Assembly (NCBI GenBank): GCA_016196065.1
Contig: JACPYL010000008.1
Coordinates: 186,001 to 250,000 of the forward strand
Direction: 5' to 3'
DNA: 64,000 nt
From: Acidobacteriota bacterium
GTDB taxonomy: Bacteria > Acidobacteriota > Terriglobia > Terriglobales > Acidobacteriaceae
Position numbers and translations under genes: made by a program. Positions 13,801 through 37,502 of this stretch are shown here, one piece after another. The notes beneath the pieces are model-generated. The model ran no database searches. It had not been told where the DNA came from and was given only the letters and a program-made list of their open reading frames with translations. The number at the start of each line of letters is the position of its first letter. The stretch's first letter is position 1.

Positions 13801-13880
13801 TGTCATCTTGAGCGGAGCGAAGGACCTGATTTCTTTTCGTTCGTCGGGACAGCAGGTCCTTCGCTCCGCTCAGGATGACA
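13801..13880. repeat. Long palindromic repeat, family A (copy 1)
   Basis: Arms 13801-13828 and 13853-13880 (28 bp each) are complementary except for one position, with a 24-base loop. The arm contains the motif GAGCGGAGCGAAGGACCTG. Related copies occur at 25901-25973 and 32296-32375, with a partial copy at 17516-17554. It lies between aguB and aguA and could act as a processing or attenuation hairpin. Confidence 0.9.
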
Positions 13881-16884: not shown

Positions 16885-17514
16885 ATGACCCAACAACCCG
16901 AACCACGCGTGACTGTGGACCTGCCGGTGCGGGTGTGGGGGATGACTGCGGACGGACGTCCGTTCTCGCAGCACGCGCGGGCGCAGAACATCAGTTCAGA
17001 AGGCGCTTTACTGGCAGGGATCGAAAGTGAACTGAAGGTCGGGGACATCATCGGCGTGCAGTGTGAAGAGAAGAAAACTCGCTGCACGGTGATGTGGGTG
17101 ATGAACACCGGCCCCATCAAGAAAAATCAGGTTGGCATCAAGTTGCTGGCGGATCAGGATTGTCCGTGGAAAGCCTACTTGCCGATGCAAGGGACCACGG
17201 CCACGATTCTCGAGAGCAATCGGCGGAAGTGGCCCCGGCACAAGATTTCATTCCCAATTGAACTCCGCGACGAGCGCTTCAAGACGCCGATGCGGATCAG
17301 CGCTACCGATGTCAGCGGCAATGGTTGTTACGTGGAAAGCATCATGCCACTGCCGATCGGAACCGTCCTGCGCGTCGACTTCTATCTGCAGAACGAGCAC
17401 ATCACGATCACTGCCGTGGTGCGAACGTGCGATCCGGGCGTGGGGAACGGGATCGAATTTACCGGCGACCCCTATTCCTCAATCGCCGGCGTCGAAACGA
17501 CAGGCTTCCGCTAA
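16885..17514 (+). CDS. Tandem PilZ-domain protein
   Basis: A 209-aa protein made of two PilZ-like beta-barrels. The second (about 105-200) has both cyclic-di-GMP signatures: RKWPR (RxxxR) and DVSGNG (DxSxxG). The first (about 1-100) keeps an NISSEG motif but its N-terminal arginines are not spaced as RxxxR, so it is probably structural. No membrane or output domain is present, so it likely works by binding a partner. ATG 16885 begins cleanly at the first barrel; an earlier start would add an unstructured leader. With the receiver/PilZ protein at 38 kb it suggests active c-di-GMP signalling, although no GGDEF or EAL gene is in the window. Confidence 0.85.
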   Translation: MTQQPEPRVTVDLPVRVWGMTADGRPFSQHARAQNISSEGALLAGIESELKVGDIIGVQCEEKKTRCTVMWVMNTGPIKKNQVGIKLLADQDCPWKAYLPMQGTTATILESNRRKWPRHKISFPIELRDERFKTPMRISATDVSGNGCYVESIMPLPIGTVLRVDFYLQNEHITITAVVRTCDPGVGNGIEFTGDPYSSIAGVETTGFR

Positions 17515-17515
17515 A

Positions 17516-17554
17516 CCGCCAGCTGCAGATCCCTCGCTCCGCGCGGGATGACAG
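17516..17554. repeat. Partial copy of palindromic repeat family A
   Basis: CCGCCAGCTGCAGATCCCTC then GCTCCGCGCGGGATGACAG matches one arm and the loop side of the repeat at 25901-25973. Only half of the palindrome is present, directly after the PilZ gene stop. Confidence 0.7.
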
Positions 17555-17581
17555 AATCTTAAAAAATACCGTAGCTGCACT

Positions 17582-18385
17582 TCACGCCGCGAAGGTGGCG
17601 TAGCGGGCGAGCAGGATGGCGCGAATCAGGCCGCCCATGGTGAATTCGCGGGCTTCAATCCCAGGCACCAATTGCAATTCTCGAAGCGTGGCCGAGGTTA
17701 CCGGACCAATCGATGCGAATTGAACTTTCTTGAGCGAGCGAGCACGGGATGACCCGAGGAGTTCGGCAAAATTTCGCACCGTGGAAGAGCTGGTAAAAGT
17801 CACGATGTGTGGACGCCGTTCTGGGTCTTTCATCAGGGCACGTAAACGGATTTGCGATTTCTTCGGCACGACGGTCTCGTAGGCTTCTACAACATCGACG
17901 GTAGCGCCGGCCGAGCGAAGTTCCTCAGGAATCACATCGCGAGCGACTTTGGCGCGGACCAGCAAGACACGCTTCCCGTTTACCTTGTCGCGCAAGCCTT
18001 TCACCACGGATTCGGCAACGTATTCTTCTGGAACCATCTTCACTTTCAGGCCGCTTTTCAAGAGTGCTGCCTTGGTAGCCGGGCCGATGGCGGCGATCTG
18101 CAAATGCTTGAAATGCCGGGCGGTCAGGCGGAACTTGCGGCGGCGTTCCCACATCGCTTTCACGCCGTTGACACTGGTCAGAATCAGCCAGTCGTAGTTC
18201 TTCAAATTCCTGAGCGCCTCATCGAGTGGCTGAAAGGATTCCGGCTTGCGAATCTCGATAAATGGAATCTCGATGACACTCGCGCCGAGCGTGCGCAGGC
18301 CAGCAGAAAGTGCGCTCGCTTGATGACGAGCGCGTCCGACAAGAATTCGAGTACCGCGGAGAGGACGTTTTTCGTTCGGGGCCAT
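17582..18385 (-). CDS. hemD: Uroporphyrinogen-III synthase
   Basis: A 267-aa HemD-family protein that closes and inverts ring D of hydroxymethylbilane to give uroporphyrinogen III. The fold is two alternating alpha/beta domains with the weakly conserved family features: ILVGRARHQASALSAGLRTLG at the N-terminus, YDWLILTSVNGVKAMWER, AAIGPATKAAL, and VTFTSSSTVRNFAELLG. It is the last gene of the minus-strand tetrapyrrole cluster but is separated from hemC by about 190 bases filled with a heptamer repeat pair. HemD is hard to assign by sequence alone; the context next to hemC makes the call strong. Confidence 0.92.
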   Translation of the reverse strand: MAPNEKRPLRGTRILVGRARHQASALSAGLRTLGASVIEIPFIEIRKPESFQPLDEALRNLKNYDWLILTSVNGVKAMWERRRKFRLTARHFKHLQIAAIGPATKAALLKSGLKVKMVPEEYVAESVVKGLRDKVNGKRVLLVRAKVARDVIPEELRSAGATVDVVEAYETVVPKKSQIRLRALMKDPERRPHIVTFTSSSTVRNFAELLGSSRARSLKKVQFASIGPVTSATLRELQLVPGIEAREFTMGGLIRAILLARYATFAA

Positions 18386-18391
18386 GGAAAC

Positions 18392-18457
18392 CAGTTCTCA
18401 GTTCCTAGTTCTTAGTTCTTAGTTCTTAGTTCTCAGTTCTCAGTTCTCAGTTCTCAG
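18392..18457. repeat. Heptamer tandem array (hemD/hemC spacer, left arm)
   Basis: About nine tandem copies of a 7-bp unit, first TTCTTAG then TTCTCAG. It is complementary to the shorter array at 18535-18566, so the two could pair across the spacer. Confidence 0.9.
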
Positions 18458-18500
18458 AAAAGGCAAAAACACTGGTAAATGGGCGTCAACAGATCTCTTT

Positions 18501-18528
18501 AGAAACCGGAACGCTGGTCCCGGTTTCT
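18501..18528. repeat. Perfect hairpin inside the hemD/hemC spacer
   Basis: AGAAACCGG (18501-18509) and CCGGTTTCT (18520-18528) form a 9-bp stem with a 10-base loop. On the minus strand no T-run follows, so it is not a clear terminator of hemC. Confidence 0.6.
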
Positions 18529-18534
18529 GGTTTT

Positions 18535-18566
18535 ACTGAGAACTGAGAACCGGGAACTGGGAACTG
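18535..18566. repeat. Heptamer array (hemD/hemC spacer, right arm)
   Basis: Four and a half units of ACTGAGA and its variants ACCGGGA and ACTGGGA, the inverse complement of the 18392-18457 array, ending 5 bases before the hemC stop codon. Confidence 0.85.
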
Positions 18567-18571
18567 CTTTA

Positions 18572-19498
18572 CTACGGCAGTGCGAATCCGGATCCGTAGA
18601 CTTCTTCCAGTATCGCATCTCCGCCACGTCGGAGAAGAGTTTCGCCGACTTCCTCACCTAACTTAACCGGATCATTGCCTGCGCGCGTCTCTCGGAGGAC
18701 TTTTGTTCCGTCCGGATGTGCAACCAGAGCGTTCAAGTGGATCTTGCCATTTTGCACTTGGGCAAAAGCGCCGATTGGTACCTGGCAACCGCCTCCGAGC
18801 TTATTGAGTAGAGCGCGTTCGCAGGTGGTGCTGGCACGGGCAGCATGGTCATCGAGAAAAGCGAGATGAGCGCGGGTTGCGCTATCACCGTTTCGGATCT
18901 CAATTCCGAGAGCGCCTTGCCCAGCGGCAGGAGTCATGACATCGACTGGAATGACCTGGCGGATGAGCTGCGTCTTTCCCAGGCGATTCAATCCGGCGGC
19001 GGCGAGAATGATGGCATCGTAGTCCCCCGCTTCGAGCTTGCGAAGACGCGTGTCGACATTGCCGCGCAGGGGATGAATCTTCAAGTCCGGCCGGATCGCC
19101 ATCAGTTGAGCCTGGCGGCGCAGGCTGCTGGTGCCGACATTGGCTCCTTGCGGCAGGTCTGCGATGCTGGCGATGTTCACCGAGCAGAAAACATCGTTGG
19201 GATTTTCGCGCGACGTAATGGCAGCAATTTCAAAATCACTCGCCAATTCCGTAGGCAGATCTTTCAAGCTATGCACCGCCAAGTCGACGCGATTCTCCAC
19301 CAGGGCCTCTTCGATTTCCTTGGTGAACATGCCCTTGGTACCGACTTTGGCGAGGGCGACGTCGGTGATCTTGTCGCCGGTGGTCTTGATGATCTCCAGT
19401 TCGACAGTGTGTCCCTGGGCGCGCAGCAGATCAGAAATATGATGCGCCTGCCAGAGGGCCAGTTGGGAGCCGCGAGAACCGATCCGGAGGAGTGCCAT
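18572..19498 (-). CDS. hemC: Hydroxymethylbilane synthase (porphobilinogen deaminase)
   Basis: A 308-aa HemC that polymerises four porphobilinogens into hydroxymethylbilane. Signatures are [16 protein letters not shown] at the N-terminus, the arginine-rich pocket [11 protein letters not shown] and the invariant Cys in [11 protein letters not shown] that carries the dipyrromethane cofactor. The length is normal. Its ATG shares one base with the hemA stop codon (TAATG), showing tight translational coupling. It provides the substrate for HemD downstream. Confidence 0.97.
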
Positions 19499-20829
19499 TA
19501 GTTAGACTCTCCTGCATCACGGCCAGACTTGGAGGCTGCGGTACGCTTTTCTTTTCCCTGCTCGGGCGACTCGCCCTCTTCGAGGTTGAACAGGCGGCGC
19601 ACCAGTTCAACGACGGTCGTGGACTCCGGTTCGCGGGCAGCCGTCTTTAATGTGCTGATCGGGGTATGCATGATCTTGTTGATGATGCCGCGGGTCAGTG
19701 CTTCCACCGCCATTTCCTGATCGGGAGACATTGTGCCCAGGCGTCCGCGGACGCGATCGATTTCGGCTTGCCGGATAGTCTCCAGATGATCGTGCAGCGA
19801 GACGATGGTGGGAACGACGTCGAGCGTCTGCAGGCGAGCATTAAATTTCACCACCTCGCCGTTGACGATCGCTTCGGCCTTTTCGGCTTCTTTCTTGCGA
19901 TCGGCTACGTGCGACGCTACAGCCTGCTGCAGATCGTCGATGTCATAGACGAAGACACCGTCCAGCTTGTTCATCTCCGGATCGACATCGCGAGGCACAG
20001 CAATATCGATGAAGAACATGGGACGGTTGCGGCGGCGCGACAGGAACTGCTCTCCATGCTCGCGTTTGAAGATAAAATTTGGCGATCCGGTGGAGGTTAT
20101 GACGATGTCGGCGCGATCGCACGTTTCGTAAAGACGGCTGAACTCGATGGCCTGTCCGTTAAATTTGTGGGCGAGCCCAATCGCGCGATCGTAAGTGCGA
20201 TTGGCGACAAAAATCGACTCCGCGCCATGAGCGAGGAGATGCCGGGCAGCCAGTTCGCTCATCTTGCCCGCGCCGACCAGGTAAACGGACTTCCCTTTCA
20301 GGTTGCCGAAGATTTTTTCCGCCAGCTCGACCGCAACCGAGGCAACGGACACGGACGATGAACCGACCGCGGTTTCCGTGCGCACTCGCTTGGCGACGGC
20401 AAAAGCACGGGTGAGCAACTGGTCCAACTGCATGCGGACGGCGCCGACTGCGCGGGCGGTCGCGTATGCCTCTTTGATCTGACCCAAGATTTGCGGCTCG
20501 CCGACGATCATGGAGTCGAGGCTGGCGGCAACGCGGAACACGTGACGGATGGCTTCGTCCTCGCGAAACTCGTAGAGATGGCTTTCAAACGGCCCCATGT
20601 CGACATCGAAGTAATCGCGCATGAAAGCGCGCAGGTCGCCGGAACCATTCTTCATGTTGGCGAGAAATTCCACGCGGTTGCAGGTGGAAACGATCATGCC
20701 TTCAGCGACGTCCGCATGTTCCGCAAGTCGCTTGCAAGCCTCCGGCAGGCGCGATTCCGGGATGGCAAGGCGCTCGCGCACTTCGACCGGGGCCGTCTTG
20801 TGATTCACGCCGATGAGTTGAAATCTCAT
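19498..20829 (-). CDS. hemA: Glutamyl-tRNA reductase
   Basis: A 443-aa HemA that reduces Glu-tRNA with NADPH to glutamate-1-semialdehyde, the first committed step of C5-pathway tetrapyrrole synthesis. The nucleophilic Cys is Cys50 in VSTCNRVEF, the usual position. The NADPH domain follows ([29 protein letters not shown]), then a C-terminal dimerisation helix region with a charged tail. ATG 20829 begins at [19 protein letters not shown]; an open extension upstream lies within the neighbouring gene. The start overlaps the stop of the upstream cytochrome-assembly gene by ATGA, so the two are coupled. No hemL is in the window. Confidence 0.97.
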
Positions 20830-24091: not shown

Positions 24092-24895
24092 TTAGTGTCT
24101 GACGAAGCCGCCCAGCACATCTTGCAGCGTGTGCGAAATCATGCCCGGCCGCAGGCTGCGACGCCAGTACGCGAGCAGACCGAGCAGCACTCCGAGCACT
24201 CCGATTTGCAACGCCTTCGCGAGACCCTGATAGGAATGCGCGGCACCGAACACGGACGCAGACAGAACGATGCCAGCGGGAATACTTTTGGTCAGAGCAG
24301 CGAATTGTTTCTGCAAGTAGCCACGAAAGACAGCCTCCTCACAGATGCCGGCGCTGATCGAGAGCGCCACCCACAGCACTCTCTCAAGGGTGGTATGCGG
24401 CAGGAGAAACCGCGTGCTCTCGTCTTGCGCGTCGCGATGAGAAGCAAGCATCGACAGGACACCGATCGATACGATCAGAAAGAGCACTCCGATTCCAATA
24501 TCGCGAAAGAAATCCCCGAAGGACTGCCAGCGTTCTCCTAAGACAGTGAGAGCCGACGATCCAGCCAGCCATAGTCCGATGAGCACAAGCCCGACAAGAA
24601 GCCATTCCGTCGCGATGGTGCGCAGATAGAGTCCGACGCGATGTTGATCGGCCATGGCGTGCATCAGTGCGGCACGCTGCCATCCTCGGAAGGCGAGTGT
24701 GCCAATGGCAGCAAGCACGGCAACGGTGTGCCACGGTGAGGCGATCCGACGAAGTGTACCGATCTCGGGTGGCGGCGAAATGTTGGTGGCGATGAGTGGC
24801 TCCTTGCGCACAAGGCACTGCAGATAGCCCTTGGACGTGCCAGAAGTGAAAGTGTCACTAGATCCGTCGTTGGTCGTTCGTCGTTCGCCAGGCAT
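24092..24895 (-). CDS. CPBP-family intramembrane glutamic/metalloprotease
   Basis: A membrane protein of up to 267 aa with about six hydrophobic segments. The CPBP (Abi/Rce1-like) motif is present: EEAVFRGYLQKQF (Glu-Glu then Arg, about 186-191) and a second motif FGAAHSYQG with His. Family members cleave membrane-bound peptides, and some confer bacteriocin self-immunity. The first 28 residues come largely from a heptamer repeat (24865-24885), so translation may really begin at the GTG at 24811; no good ribosome site decides this. The next gene upstream is beta-lactamase on the same strand. Confidence 0.8.
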   Translation of the reverse strand: MPGERRTTNDGSSDTFTSGTSKGYLQCLVRKEPLIATNISPPPEIGTLRRIASPWHTVAVLAAIGTLAFRGWQRAALMHAMADQHRVGLYLRTIATEWLLVGLVLIGLWLAGSSALTVLGERWQSFGDFFRDIGIGVLFLIVSIGVLSMLASHRDAQDESTRFLLPHTTLERVLWVALSISAGICEEAVFRGYLQKQFAALTKSIPAGIVLSASVFGAAHSYQGLAKALQIGVLGVLLGLLAYWRRSLRPGMISHTLQDVLGGFVRH

Positions 24896-24935
24896 GGATT
24901 TGCTAACGACGAAGGACGAACGACCGACGACGATC
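24861..24935. repeat. Paired heptamer arrays (CPBP/beta-lactamase spacer)
   Basis: Left arm of 7-bp units CGTCGTT, GGTCGTT, CGTCGTT (24865-24885). Right arm of complementary units AACGACG, AAGGACG, AACGACC, GACGACG (24905-24932), flanked by GATC on the outside. The two can fold into a long hairpin. Confidence 0.8.
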
Positions 24936-24937
24936 CG

Positions 24938-26017
24938 CTATTTACTGGAATTCCCCGGCGAAATCACGCGGCCGTATTCGCTGGCGCGAGCCAGGCGATC
25001 GAACATTCTCCAAGCGGAGAGAGAAATCTTGCTGATGGCTTCTTCGCCCTCGCGCTCGCGATGCAGATACGAAGTCATCACGCACAAAATGTACGGACGC
25101 TTCTCCACGAAAATTACGCCGGAATCGTTGCGGACACCTTCTAGCGCGCCGGGCTTATCGGCGATCTTCAAGTCGTCGGGGAGATCGCGCGGGATCCAAC
25201 TATCTTTGTGGGTCGCGAGCACGCGGAAGAAGTCTTCCGTCATCTCTTTGTTGAGCACTTTGCCGCGATAAAGCGCCTCAAGCAGGGCCATCATCTCGGA
25301 CGGTGTCGAGATATTTTCCCGGCCTTCGCCGGCGGCTTTCAGGTCCATCATCTTGCGGCGCAGGCGCGTGTGGGTGAGGCCAAGCGAATCCAGCCATGCG
25401 TTGACGTTCTCCATGCCAACCCGGTCGATCAGCACGTTGGTAGCGGAGTTATCGCTGACCGCAACCATCATGGTCGCCAGATCGCGCAGCGTGATCTTCG
25501 TGACGCCGGGAGTCAGGCCGCCCATGATGTCGCTGTCCTGAACAAGGTCAGAGGCATTAACCGTGTAAAGGTCCGTCAGTTTGAGCTTGCCTTGCTGTGC
25601 CTGCCGGTAGAGTTCAGCGAGCACGCATATCTTGATGGAACTGGCTTGGGCGAAGACGTCATTGCCATGCAGTAAATATTTGTGGCCGTCAGTGAGATCG
25701 AGAATCGCGACGCCCATCGACCCATCAAGGTTGCGATCGACGTCGCCGATCGAACTCTCCAGTTTCTGCCAGAGGGCTTGCTGCTTTTCCTGCGGAGCGG
25801 CTGCGGCGTTTTGCGCAACCGCGATTCCGCTGATCATCGAGCAGCACATCGTCCATGCAAAAGTAGCGGCTCGCCACCGATTGACCCTCCCCCAAGGTCT
25901 GCCATCCCGAGCGAAGCGAGGGATCTGCAGCTGGCGGCGAACTGCGGATCTCTCGCTCCGCTCGGGATGACAGTGAGGGAAGAGTATCTCCACGATGGCA
26001 AGGGCTCGCATTCGCAT
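24938..26017 (-). CDS. Class A beta-lactamase-type serine hydrolase
   Basis: A 359-aa exported protein of the class A beta-lactamase family. Ser126 and Lys129 form the SxxK motif (SSIK), residues 188-190 are SDN, and the third motif is KPG (288-290) rather than KTG. The proteins can hydrolyse beta-lactams or act as peptidases; activity cannot be predicted from the altered third motif. Residues 15-39 are encoded by a palindromic repeat (CHPERSERSAV... FARDG), and the signal peptide core (AATFAWTMCCSMISGIAVAQ) lies only at 50-69. No start codon lies between the repeat and the signal core except ATG within the core itself. The start is 3 bases after the upstream GalT-like stop. Confidence 0.85.
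   Translation of the reverse strand: MRMRALAIVEILFPHCHPERSERSAVRRQLQIPRFARDGRPWGRVNRWRAATFAWTMCCSMISGIAVAQNAAAAPQEKQQALWQKLESSIGDVDRNLDGSMGVAILDLTDGHKYLLHGNDVFAQASSIKICVLAELYRQAQQGKLKLTDLYTVNASDLVQDSDIMGGLTPGVTKITLRDLATMMVAVSDNSATNVLIDRVGMENVNAWLDSLGLTHTRLRRKMMDLKAAGEGRENISTPSEMMALLEALYRGKVLNKEMTEDFFRVLATHKDSWIPRDLPDDLKIADKPGALEGVRNDSGVIFVEKRPYILCVMTSYLHREREGEEAISKISLSAWRMFDRLARASEYGRVISPGNSSK
25901..25973. repeat. Palindromic repeat, family A (copy 2), inside beta-lactamase
   Basis: Arms 25901-25930 and 25943-25973 share the GAGCGAAGCGAGGGATC motif in inverted orientation around a GCTGGCGGCG loop. The whole element is read in frame as residues 15-39 of the beta-lactamase protein. Confidence 0.85.
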
Positions 26018-33947: not shown

Positions 33948-33998
33948 GTGATAACATGAAAAGCTCGACCAGCTCCAGGCGCCGCCTTTGCCGTTCCT

Positions 33999-34027
33999 GA
34001 GACCTGACACCTAACACCTGAGACCTG
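33999..34027. repeat. Short heptamer array upstream of the YmdB-like gene
   Basis: Four 7-bp units GAGACCT, GACACCT, AACACCT, GAGACCT ending just before the gene. The complementary unit AGGTCTC is related to the array at 37397-37459. Confidence 0.75.
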
Positions 34028-37396: not shown

Positions 37397-37459
37397 CAGG
37401 TCTCAGGTGTCGGGTCTCAGGTGGCAGGTTTCAGGTTTCTGGTTTCTGGTTTCTGGTTG
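37397..37459. repeat. Heptamer tandem array (exactly nine units)
   Basis: Nine 7-bp units covering 63 bases: CAGGTCT, CAGGTGT, CGGGTCT, CAGGTGG, CAGGTTT twice, CTGGTTT twice, CTGGTTG. Variation is progressive along the array. No complementary partner was seen nearby. Confidence 0.85.
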
Positions 37460-37502
37460 CGGATCAGCTTCCCATCATGTCTTAATCGCAAACCTTCACT
37501 CC

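Follow-up and report, generated by a model that had tools for sequence, protein, structure and literature searches.

The window, a 64,000-nt stretch of an Acidobacteriota genome (assembly GCA_016196065.1; 5.53 Mb in 29 contigs), contains an operon of ccsA, hemA, hemC and hemD. Pfam families back the identities of ccsA and hemA as they do those of hemC and hemD, and the named relatives of the window hemC are Acidobacteriota, many of them labelled Acidobacteriaceae or Terriglobia. All four genes lie on the minus strand, which places a long tandem array directly 5' of hemD. In this genome ccsA and hemA overlap, hemA and hemC overlap by 1 nt, and the hemC-hemD junction is open at 186 nt; the initial annotation had described the array as interrupting an otherwise tight ccsA-hemA-hemC operon, and it does occupy the only open junction. 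The gap is filled by 7-bp units in inverted orientation, counted by Tandem Repeats Finder (TRF) as 9.4 and 4.6 copies, in agreement with the earlier description of about nine units facing 4.5 complementary ones.

Table 1. Genes, repeat arms and other heptamer arrays of the window, by position in the 64,000-nt stretch.
Feature	Position	Strand	Basis
hemD, uroporphyrinogen-III synthase	17582..18385	-	Pfam PF02602
hemD-proximal arm	18392..18457	-	period 7, 9.4 copies, 93% matches (TRF)
Loop/spacer with internal hairpin (about 18495-18531)	18458..18534	.	DNA matches in own genome and fold
hemC-proximal arm	18535..18566	+	4.6 heptamers, 88% matches, reverse complement type (TRF)
hemC, porphobilinogen deaminase	18572..19498	-	Pfam PF01379/PF03900
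Inverted pair of CGTCGTT / AACGACG heptamers at Rce1-like gene	24865..24933	.	TRF, Pfam
Single heptamer array, CAGGTNT type, 5 nt before called (TTG) start of YmdB-like gene	33996..34027	-	TRF, lag scan, Pfam
Heptamer array, CAGGTNT/CTGGTTT type	37397..37464	+	TRF, lag scan

On the gene (minus) strand, the hemD-proximal arm reads (GAGAACT)n with variants and its final CTG stands 6 nt upstream of the hemD ATG, while the first YAG of the hemC-proximal arm begins 5 nt past the hemC stop. The unit of the hemC-proximal array, ACTGAGA, is the reverse complement of the array facing it. The spacer between them contains a hairpin, GAAACCGG/CCGGTTTC, as first reported, which at 12 pairs in the predicted fold is slightly longer than the 9 bp originally given. 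Searching the array element against its own genome returned 102 DNA matches, some of which are both strands of one place. Among the matches listed, none spanned the spacer, and the deepest entered it by about 28 nt at 78% identity. A search of Rfam at the gathering threshold gave no match anywhere in the window.

The frequency of such arrays was measured in an 864-kb sample of the genome, made up of the window and 40 stretches of 20 kb at even intervals, with 646 genes taken from a simple coding-model caller (83% coding). Strict intergenic arrays numbered 43 at a lag of 7 and 32 at its multiple, 14, with 1 to 6 at each other lag from 4 to 15. At the same lag of 7, just 10 arrays fell in coding sequence, despite its share of the sample. 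TRF rows scoring at least 40 gave a similar picture, with 34 intergenic rows at period 7, 12 at period 14 and at most 5 at any other period. An even spread of periods, under which the recurrence of 7 would be chance, was looked for in this sample and not found. The arrays are tandem 7-bp units, mostly intergenic, as are the TAACTGA and GGGAATC repeats of other bacteria, and if the sample density (43 per 864 kb) holds, the genome would carry about 275 of them. In the window itself there were 13 relaxed period-7 matches, five of them inside called coding sequence. The pair at the Rce1-like protease gene has one arm within the called 5' end of the gene and the second in the preceding gap of 42 nt; the arm at 24865-24887 may be an array turned coding, or the start may have been called too early.

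Aligned over rotation and strand, the 43 sampled arrays share the skeleton G-N-T-N-N-Y-A, in which the values for G and T are near 0.9 and the remaining positions are loose. There is no single fixed unit in this genome: 26 different oriented units occurred among the 43 arrays, the commonest being GTTCTCA (10), GTTCGTC (5) and GGTCTCA (3). Read outward from the gene, most units begin with Y-R-G and continue with four variable bases; CAGTTCT, CAGGTNT and CAGCTNT are frequent forms. Neighbouring units within an array differed by 0.12 at G, 0.12 at the next base, 0.32 at T and 0.38-0.53 elsewhere, as measured in the 36 of 95 loose lag-7 arrays that passed the skeleton cut and could be oriented. 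The initial annotation had the 7-bp period recurring with unrelated unit sequences. The recurrence is confirmed, but "unrelated" is not, since one degenerate skeleton describes all 43 sampled arrays; even within the window, the two arrays of CAGGTNT type (33996-34027 and 37397-37464) have the same skeleton as the hem array.

Two of the 43 arrays had no flanking gene and were dropped from the placement count. Of the other 41, 28 (68%) lay within 20 nt of a gene end, compared to 37% under random placement and a maximum of 59% in 2000 simulations. Their flanking genes were co-directional in 28 cases, convergent in 7 and divergent in 6, which is near the background for gaps of at least 60 nt (265, 65 and 103, respectively). 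A motif search for outward arrays, limited to 60 nt from the gene, yielded 33 past 619 stops and 20 before 616 starts. Near gene ends the arrays are oriented and point away from the gene, as TAACTGA and GGGAATC arrays do: of the 29 arrays no more than 24 nt from a gene end, 25 were outward by skeleton score (p 1e-4), and a symmetric count in a separate motif scan gave 44 outward vs 16 inward (p 4e-4). When all 41 were oriented by their nearest gene end, nine ran against the outward rule.

Many of these arrays occur as facing pairs. The sample contained 46 strong intergenic inverted repeats, 15 of them with period-7 arms, and by skeleton score the left arm was of one and the same type in 14 of these 15 hairpins and, weakly, of the other type in the remaining one. 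Period-7 hairpins lay within 20 nt of a gene end in 13 of 15 cases, compared to 3 of 9 hairpins with a GAGCG(A/G)AGCGA core and 12 of 22 others. Another family of intergenic palindromes, CTGTCATCCCGAGCGAAGCGAGGGATCTGCA, was also observed, at 13801-13880 and 25899-25973 of the window and at seven further loci; by its core it accounts for nine strong hairpins of the sample, vs 15 for the heptamers. Half of the CTGTCATCCCGAGCGAAGCGAGGGATCTGCA palindrome was found in the hemC-side part of the hemC-hemD gap in several relatives.

Three junctions, each chosen for its hairpin in the window genome, were followed over the genus. The hemC-hemD gap was open, at 51-258 nt, in 17 of 17 relatives with both genes called, and a strict array was present in nine of these as well as in the window. 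A looser chain test detected a start-side array in 13 of 18 species and a stop-side array in 7 of 18. At the neighbouring hemA/hemC junction, the gene caller opened a gap of 72-426 nt in 4 of 19 relatives, perhaps through late starts. Units at hemC-hemD included AGTTCTC, AGGTCTC, AGCTCTC, AGTAGCT and AGTTGCC, and copy number at one site differed between species. At the malQ junction, where flanking DNA is about 70% identical across the genus, 16 of 20 species had a start-side chain, 12 a stop-side chain and 11 both (shuffle chance 1.3%). The third junction, the convergent L159, has a gap of about 111 nt in the window genome that is nearly all hairpin. After 22 of 29 loci with one readable flank or none were dropped, the other seven proved to be views of four genomes, of which two (G011 and G001) had overlapping stops and no gap and two had other gaps, of 77 and 103 nt. 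Persistence at malQ and hemC-hemD together with absence at L159 indicates that some copies are kept over the genus and that others are gained or lost within it.

At the two persistent junctions, we compared each arm's match to its own partner with its match to the partner arms of other species, using 20,000 permutations. For hemC-hemD, where gaps below 60 nt or above 400 nt were dropped, the match was 12.5 to the own partner vs 8.1 to others, a difference reached in 0 of 20,000 permutations (17 gaps). For malQ, the values were 15.5 and 13.2, with 7 of 20,000 permutations (20 gaps). A gap alignment comprised 17 rows chosen out of 20 gaps. The two arms tend to change unit together over evolution at both junctions; judged by eye, the match departs from strict hairpin register. 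On the sense strand, G-T mismatches were no commoner than A-C mismatches, at 31 vs 40 over three sets: malQ (11/19), hemC-hemD (5/10, in the 6 loci left by an arm-pattern filter, with the window gap excluded) and co-directional sample hairpins (15/11 in 8 loci, with the window hairpin eligible). Selection on RNA through wobble pairs is therefore unsupported. Both strands of the hemC-hemD gap also fold alike, each far more stably than dinucleotide shuffles, with z scores of -7.7 for the gene strand and -6.3 for the opposite strand. With no excess of wobble pairs on the transcribed strand and similar folding of the two strands, an RNA hairpin under selection explains the pattern less well than concerted change in the DNA, and our data favour a DNA-level cause.

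Collectively, the arrays are dispersed, hold to one period and one skeleton, are polar, hug genes, and persist at two orthologous junctions with turnover of units and concerted change of arms. The hem array is one of many mirrored heptamer arrays found in this soil bacterium and in its relatives, with nothing peculiar to hem genes. We consider it somewhat probable that these are abundant, dispersed gene-junction repeats, built of facing heptamer arrays around a short unique loop and placed a few bases from start and stop codons, in which slippage and DNA-level upkeep of the arms act together. Under this explanation, arrays would gain and lose length through slippage, and resemblance between the arms would be maintained in the DNA itself, through hairpin-templated correction or through other copies that replace them, rather than by selection on an RNA stem; the arm test is equally compatible with correction and with replacement of whole elements. 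The arrays would be tolerated and perhaps sometimes used as leaders. At hemD, the start-adjacent arm doubles as the 5' leader, which has no Shine-Dalgarno-like sequence, and an effect on expression is possible.

One alternative, which we think unlikely, is a non-autonomous mobile element of the MITE or REPIN type, with heptamer inverted ends, inserted in short intergenic gaps. The L159 hairpin, which fills a gap that has no counterpart in G011 and G001, fits such an element as well as it fits gene-junction repeats, and unit types common to many copies and inverted ends of one polarity in 14 of the 15 hairpins point the same way. However, the loops of the 15 sample hairpins look unrelated, and no target duplication was seen at the single empty site, L159. 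The link to RAYT transposases expected for REPINs also failed, as none of six Y1 transposase loci had a heptamer array abutting the gene and other palindromes adjoined instead. At two of the six, a single weak period-7 stretch of 2.5 copies was present, at a distance of about 570 nt in one case and 1100 nt in the other. Beside some of these Y1 (REP-type) loci lie GC-rich palindromes such as CCCGGCGCTCCAGCGCCGGG, possibly REP families of their own.

A tentative and rather doubtful alternative is that the arrays are candidate translation-initiation leaders in which the start-proximal arm takes the place of a Shine-Dalgarno sequence, a role already proposed for the TAACTGA repeats of Beggiatoaceae. 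In eighteen genes the start had an array no more than 25 nt away; 16 of these arrays shared one sense orientation, and just one of the 18 genes had a Shine-Dalgarno-like sequence, compared to 33% of 617 genes (Fisher p 0.01). Spacing would also suit a leader: of 20 outward start-side arrays, eight lay 5-7 nt from the start, nine lay 5-9 nt from it and none was nearer than 5 nt, whereas 12 of 33 stop-side arrays were (p 0.002). At malQ, 14 of 20 species had the first unit 6-8 nt away from the start codon, and at hemD the start-side array was kept in more species than its stop-side partner. Yet outward arrays were commoner past stops than before starts, and they also occur between convergent genes. 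Among hemD relatives without an array, a Shine-Dalgarno-like sequence was found in 8 of 45. Because most array-less relatives lack one as well, replacement of a lost Shine-Dalgarno sequence by the array is unsupported at hemD. Nor did the spacing recur in two other genomes of the phylum (described below), where start-side arrays lay under 10 nt from the start in 0 of 5 (G272) and 0 of 1 (G258) cases.

It is improbable that the array acts as an RNA hairpin, whether to regulate or uncouple hemD or to shield the hemC message. In favour of this reading are the very stable predicted fold of the gene strand, the opening of the junction in every relative called, and the lack of other signals: no promoter match was found in 17500-19600, and no intrinsic terminator (GC-rich stem then T run) within 18386-18571 in a scan covering loops of 3-8 nt. 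Against it, neither folding nor wobble pairs showed a strand preference, similar arrays may number in the hundreds in this genome, and 11 of 18 relatives had no detectable hemC-side arm. The uncoupling of hemD, which had been put forward as a consequence of the array, is possible but unsupported as a reason for it, with the junction open in all 17 relatives, a strict array in nine only, and similar arrays between convergent and divergent genes too. Plain, unconstrained slippage repeats would account for the differing copy numbers, but are very improbable in view of persistence at malQ with flanks of about 70% identity, polarity, a skeleton kept while other positions vary, and concerted arms.

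Beyond this genome the period was less uniform. In a sample of G272, from the same family and another genus, there were nine intergenic arrays with a lag of 7 and 14 with a lag of 8; in G258, a distant member of the phylum, there were eight at each lag. Period 7 is therefore not dominant in either, and the initial claim of a conserved period, which holds for the window genome, does not extend to G272, with its larger number of 8-bp arrays in the sample taken. Stop-side arrays were near the gene end in 3 of 4 cases in G272 and 1 of 2 in G258. The octamer arrays of G272, seen at seven loci, often read GTTGAATN, where a single base of each unit is free, and some were inverted pairs.

A run of four AGNTNNY units, which serves as a usable search pattern, was patchily distributed in the phylum and present in 99 of the 297 genomes sampled. 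The window genome had 90 overlapping matches to this pattern and 0 to a backward control. Within its family, 17 of 31 genomes contained the pattern, 12 of them at least 10 times, while the backward pattern occurred in 4 of 31 (52, 12, 3 and 1 matches). In several other families, backward matches equalled and sometimes exceeded forward ones; the skeleton is therefore not specific phylum-wide. By far the highest four-unit count of the phylum sample came from G203 (family f10), with 542 matches (forward plus reverse) and 386 to the backward control. Arrays such as AGCTGACAGCTAATAGCTCAC in other genomes keep the frame and vary in the middle, which illustrates the frame and is no test of it, because the frame served as the search pattern. 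Period-7 arrays with various unit types, many of them located where open frames begin or end, were also present on three IMG/VR contigs filed as viral; these contigs may be bacterial DNA.

Arrays of this kind are already known, with TAACTGA and GGGAATC arrays as close precedents. TAACTGA repeats occur in marine Beggiatoaceae, Cyanobacteria and Bacteroidetes (MacGregor 2015, PMC4679880) and resemble the acidobacterial arrays in being intergenic heptamers near start codons, in sense orientation (AACTGAT there, AACTGAG here) and in the scarcity of Shine-Dalgarno sequences (about 10% vs 25% there; 1 of 18 vs 33% here). The reverse strand of their unit, AGTTATC, matches the AGNTNNY pattern. In the Guaymas genome, nearly all arrays were single and direct, with one inverted in 170 sets, copies numbered two to six, and one unit was used, related heptamers being rarely repeated. 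The acidobacterial arrays differ in their inverted pairs, their many related units and their presence at stop codons too.

The GGGAATC repeats of Xanthomonas and GGGGAYT repeats of Nostoc (Rehm 2015, PMC4692102) are likewise intergenic heptamers. Those of Xanthomonas often form convergent inverted pairs (70 in one genome with 186 arrays) with the same outward geometry as ours, while Nostoc has few inverted pairs. Both units differ from the acidobacterial ones in sequence, being G-rich and quadruplex-forming in vitro, and turnover of units between species, seen here, was not found for them in the passages of that paper used here. REP/REPIN elements and GTAG/CGTC palindromes (PMC3733652) are similarly dispersed and intergenic, and some such palindromes are tied to tyrosine transposases, acidobacterial ones among them. 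The word heptamer does not occur in that paper, and the transposase link is absent at the six Y1 loci here. In the open-licence literature, with subscription journals mostly outside its reach, we found no acidobacterial heptamer family, degenerate unit of this type, or unit turnover with concerted arms.

Heptamer arrays have so far been reported piecemeal, from few phyla, and with their explanation unsettled. One speculative and, in our estimate, unlikely proposal is that a trans-acting system reading YRG every seven bases, outward from gene ends, writes or maintains the arrays; the cross-phylum fit to YRG is weak, having been made post hoc and by eye from printed units. If this were true, the heptamers of these acidobacteria, Beggiatoaceae, Xanthomonas and Nostoc would each be a lineage's own alphabet for a single phenomenon, with turnover in the variable bases of the unit and a fixed period, polarity and place. 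The acidobacterial set shows that both arms of one orthologous junction can exchange their unit jointly without loss of period, polarity or position, and it offers a question that can be tested by strain comparison and simple reporters.
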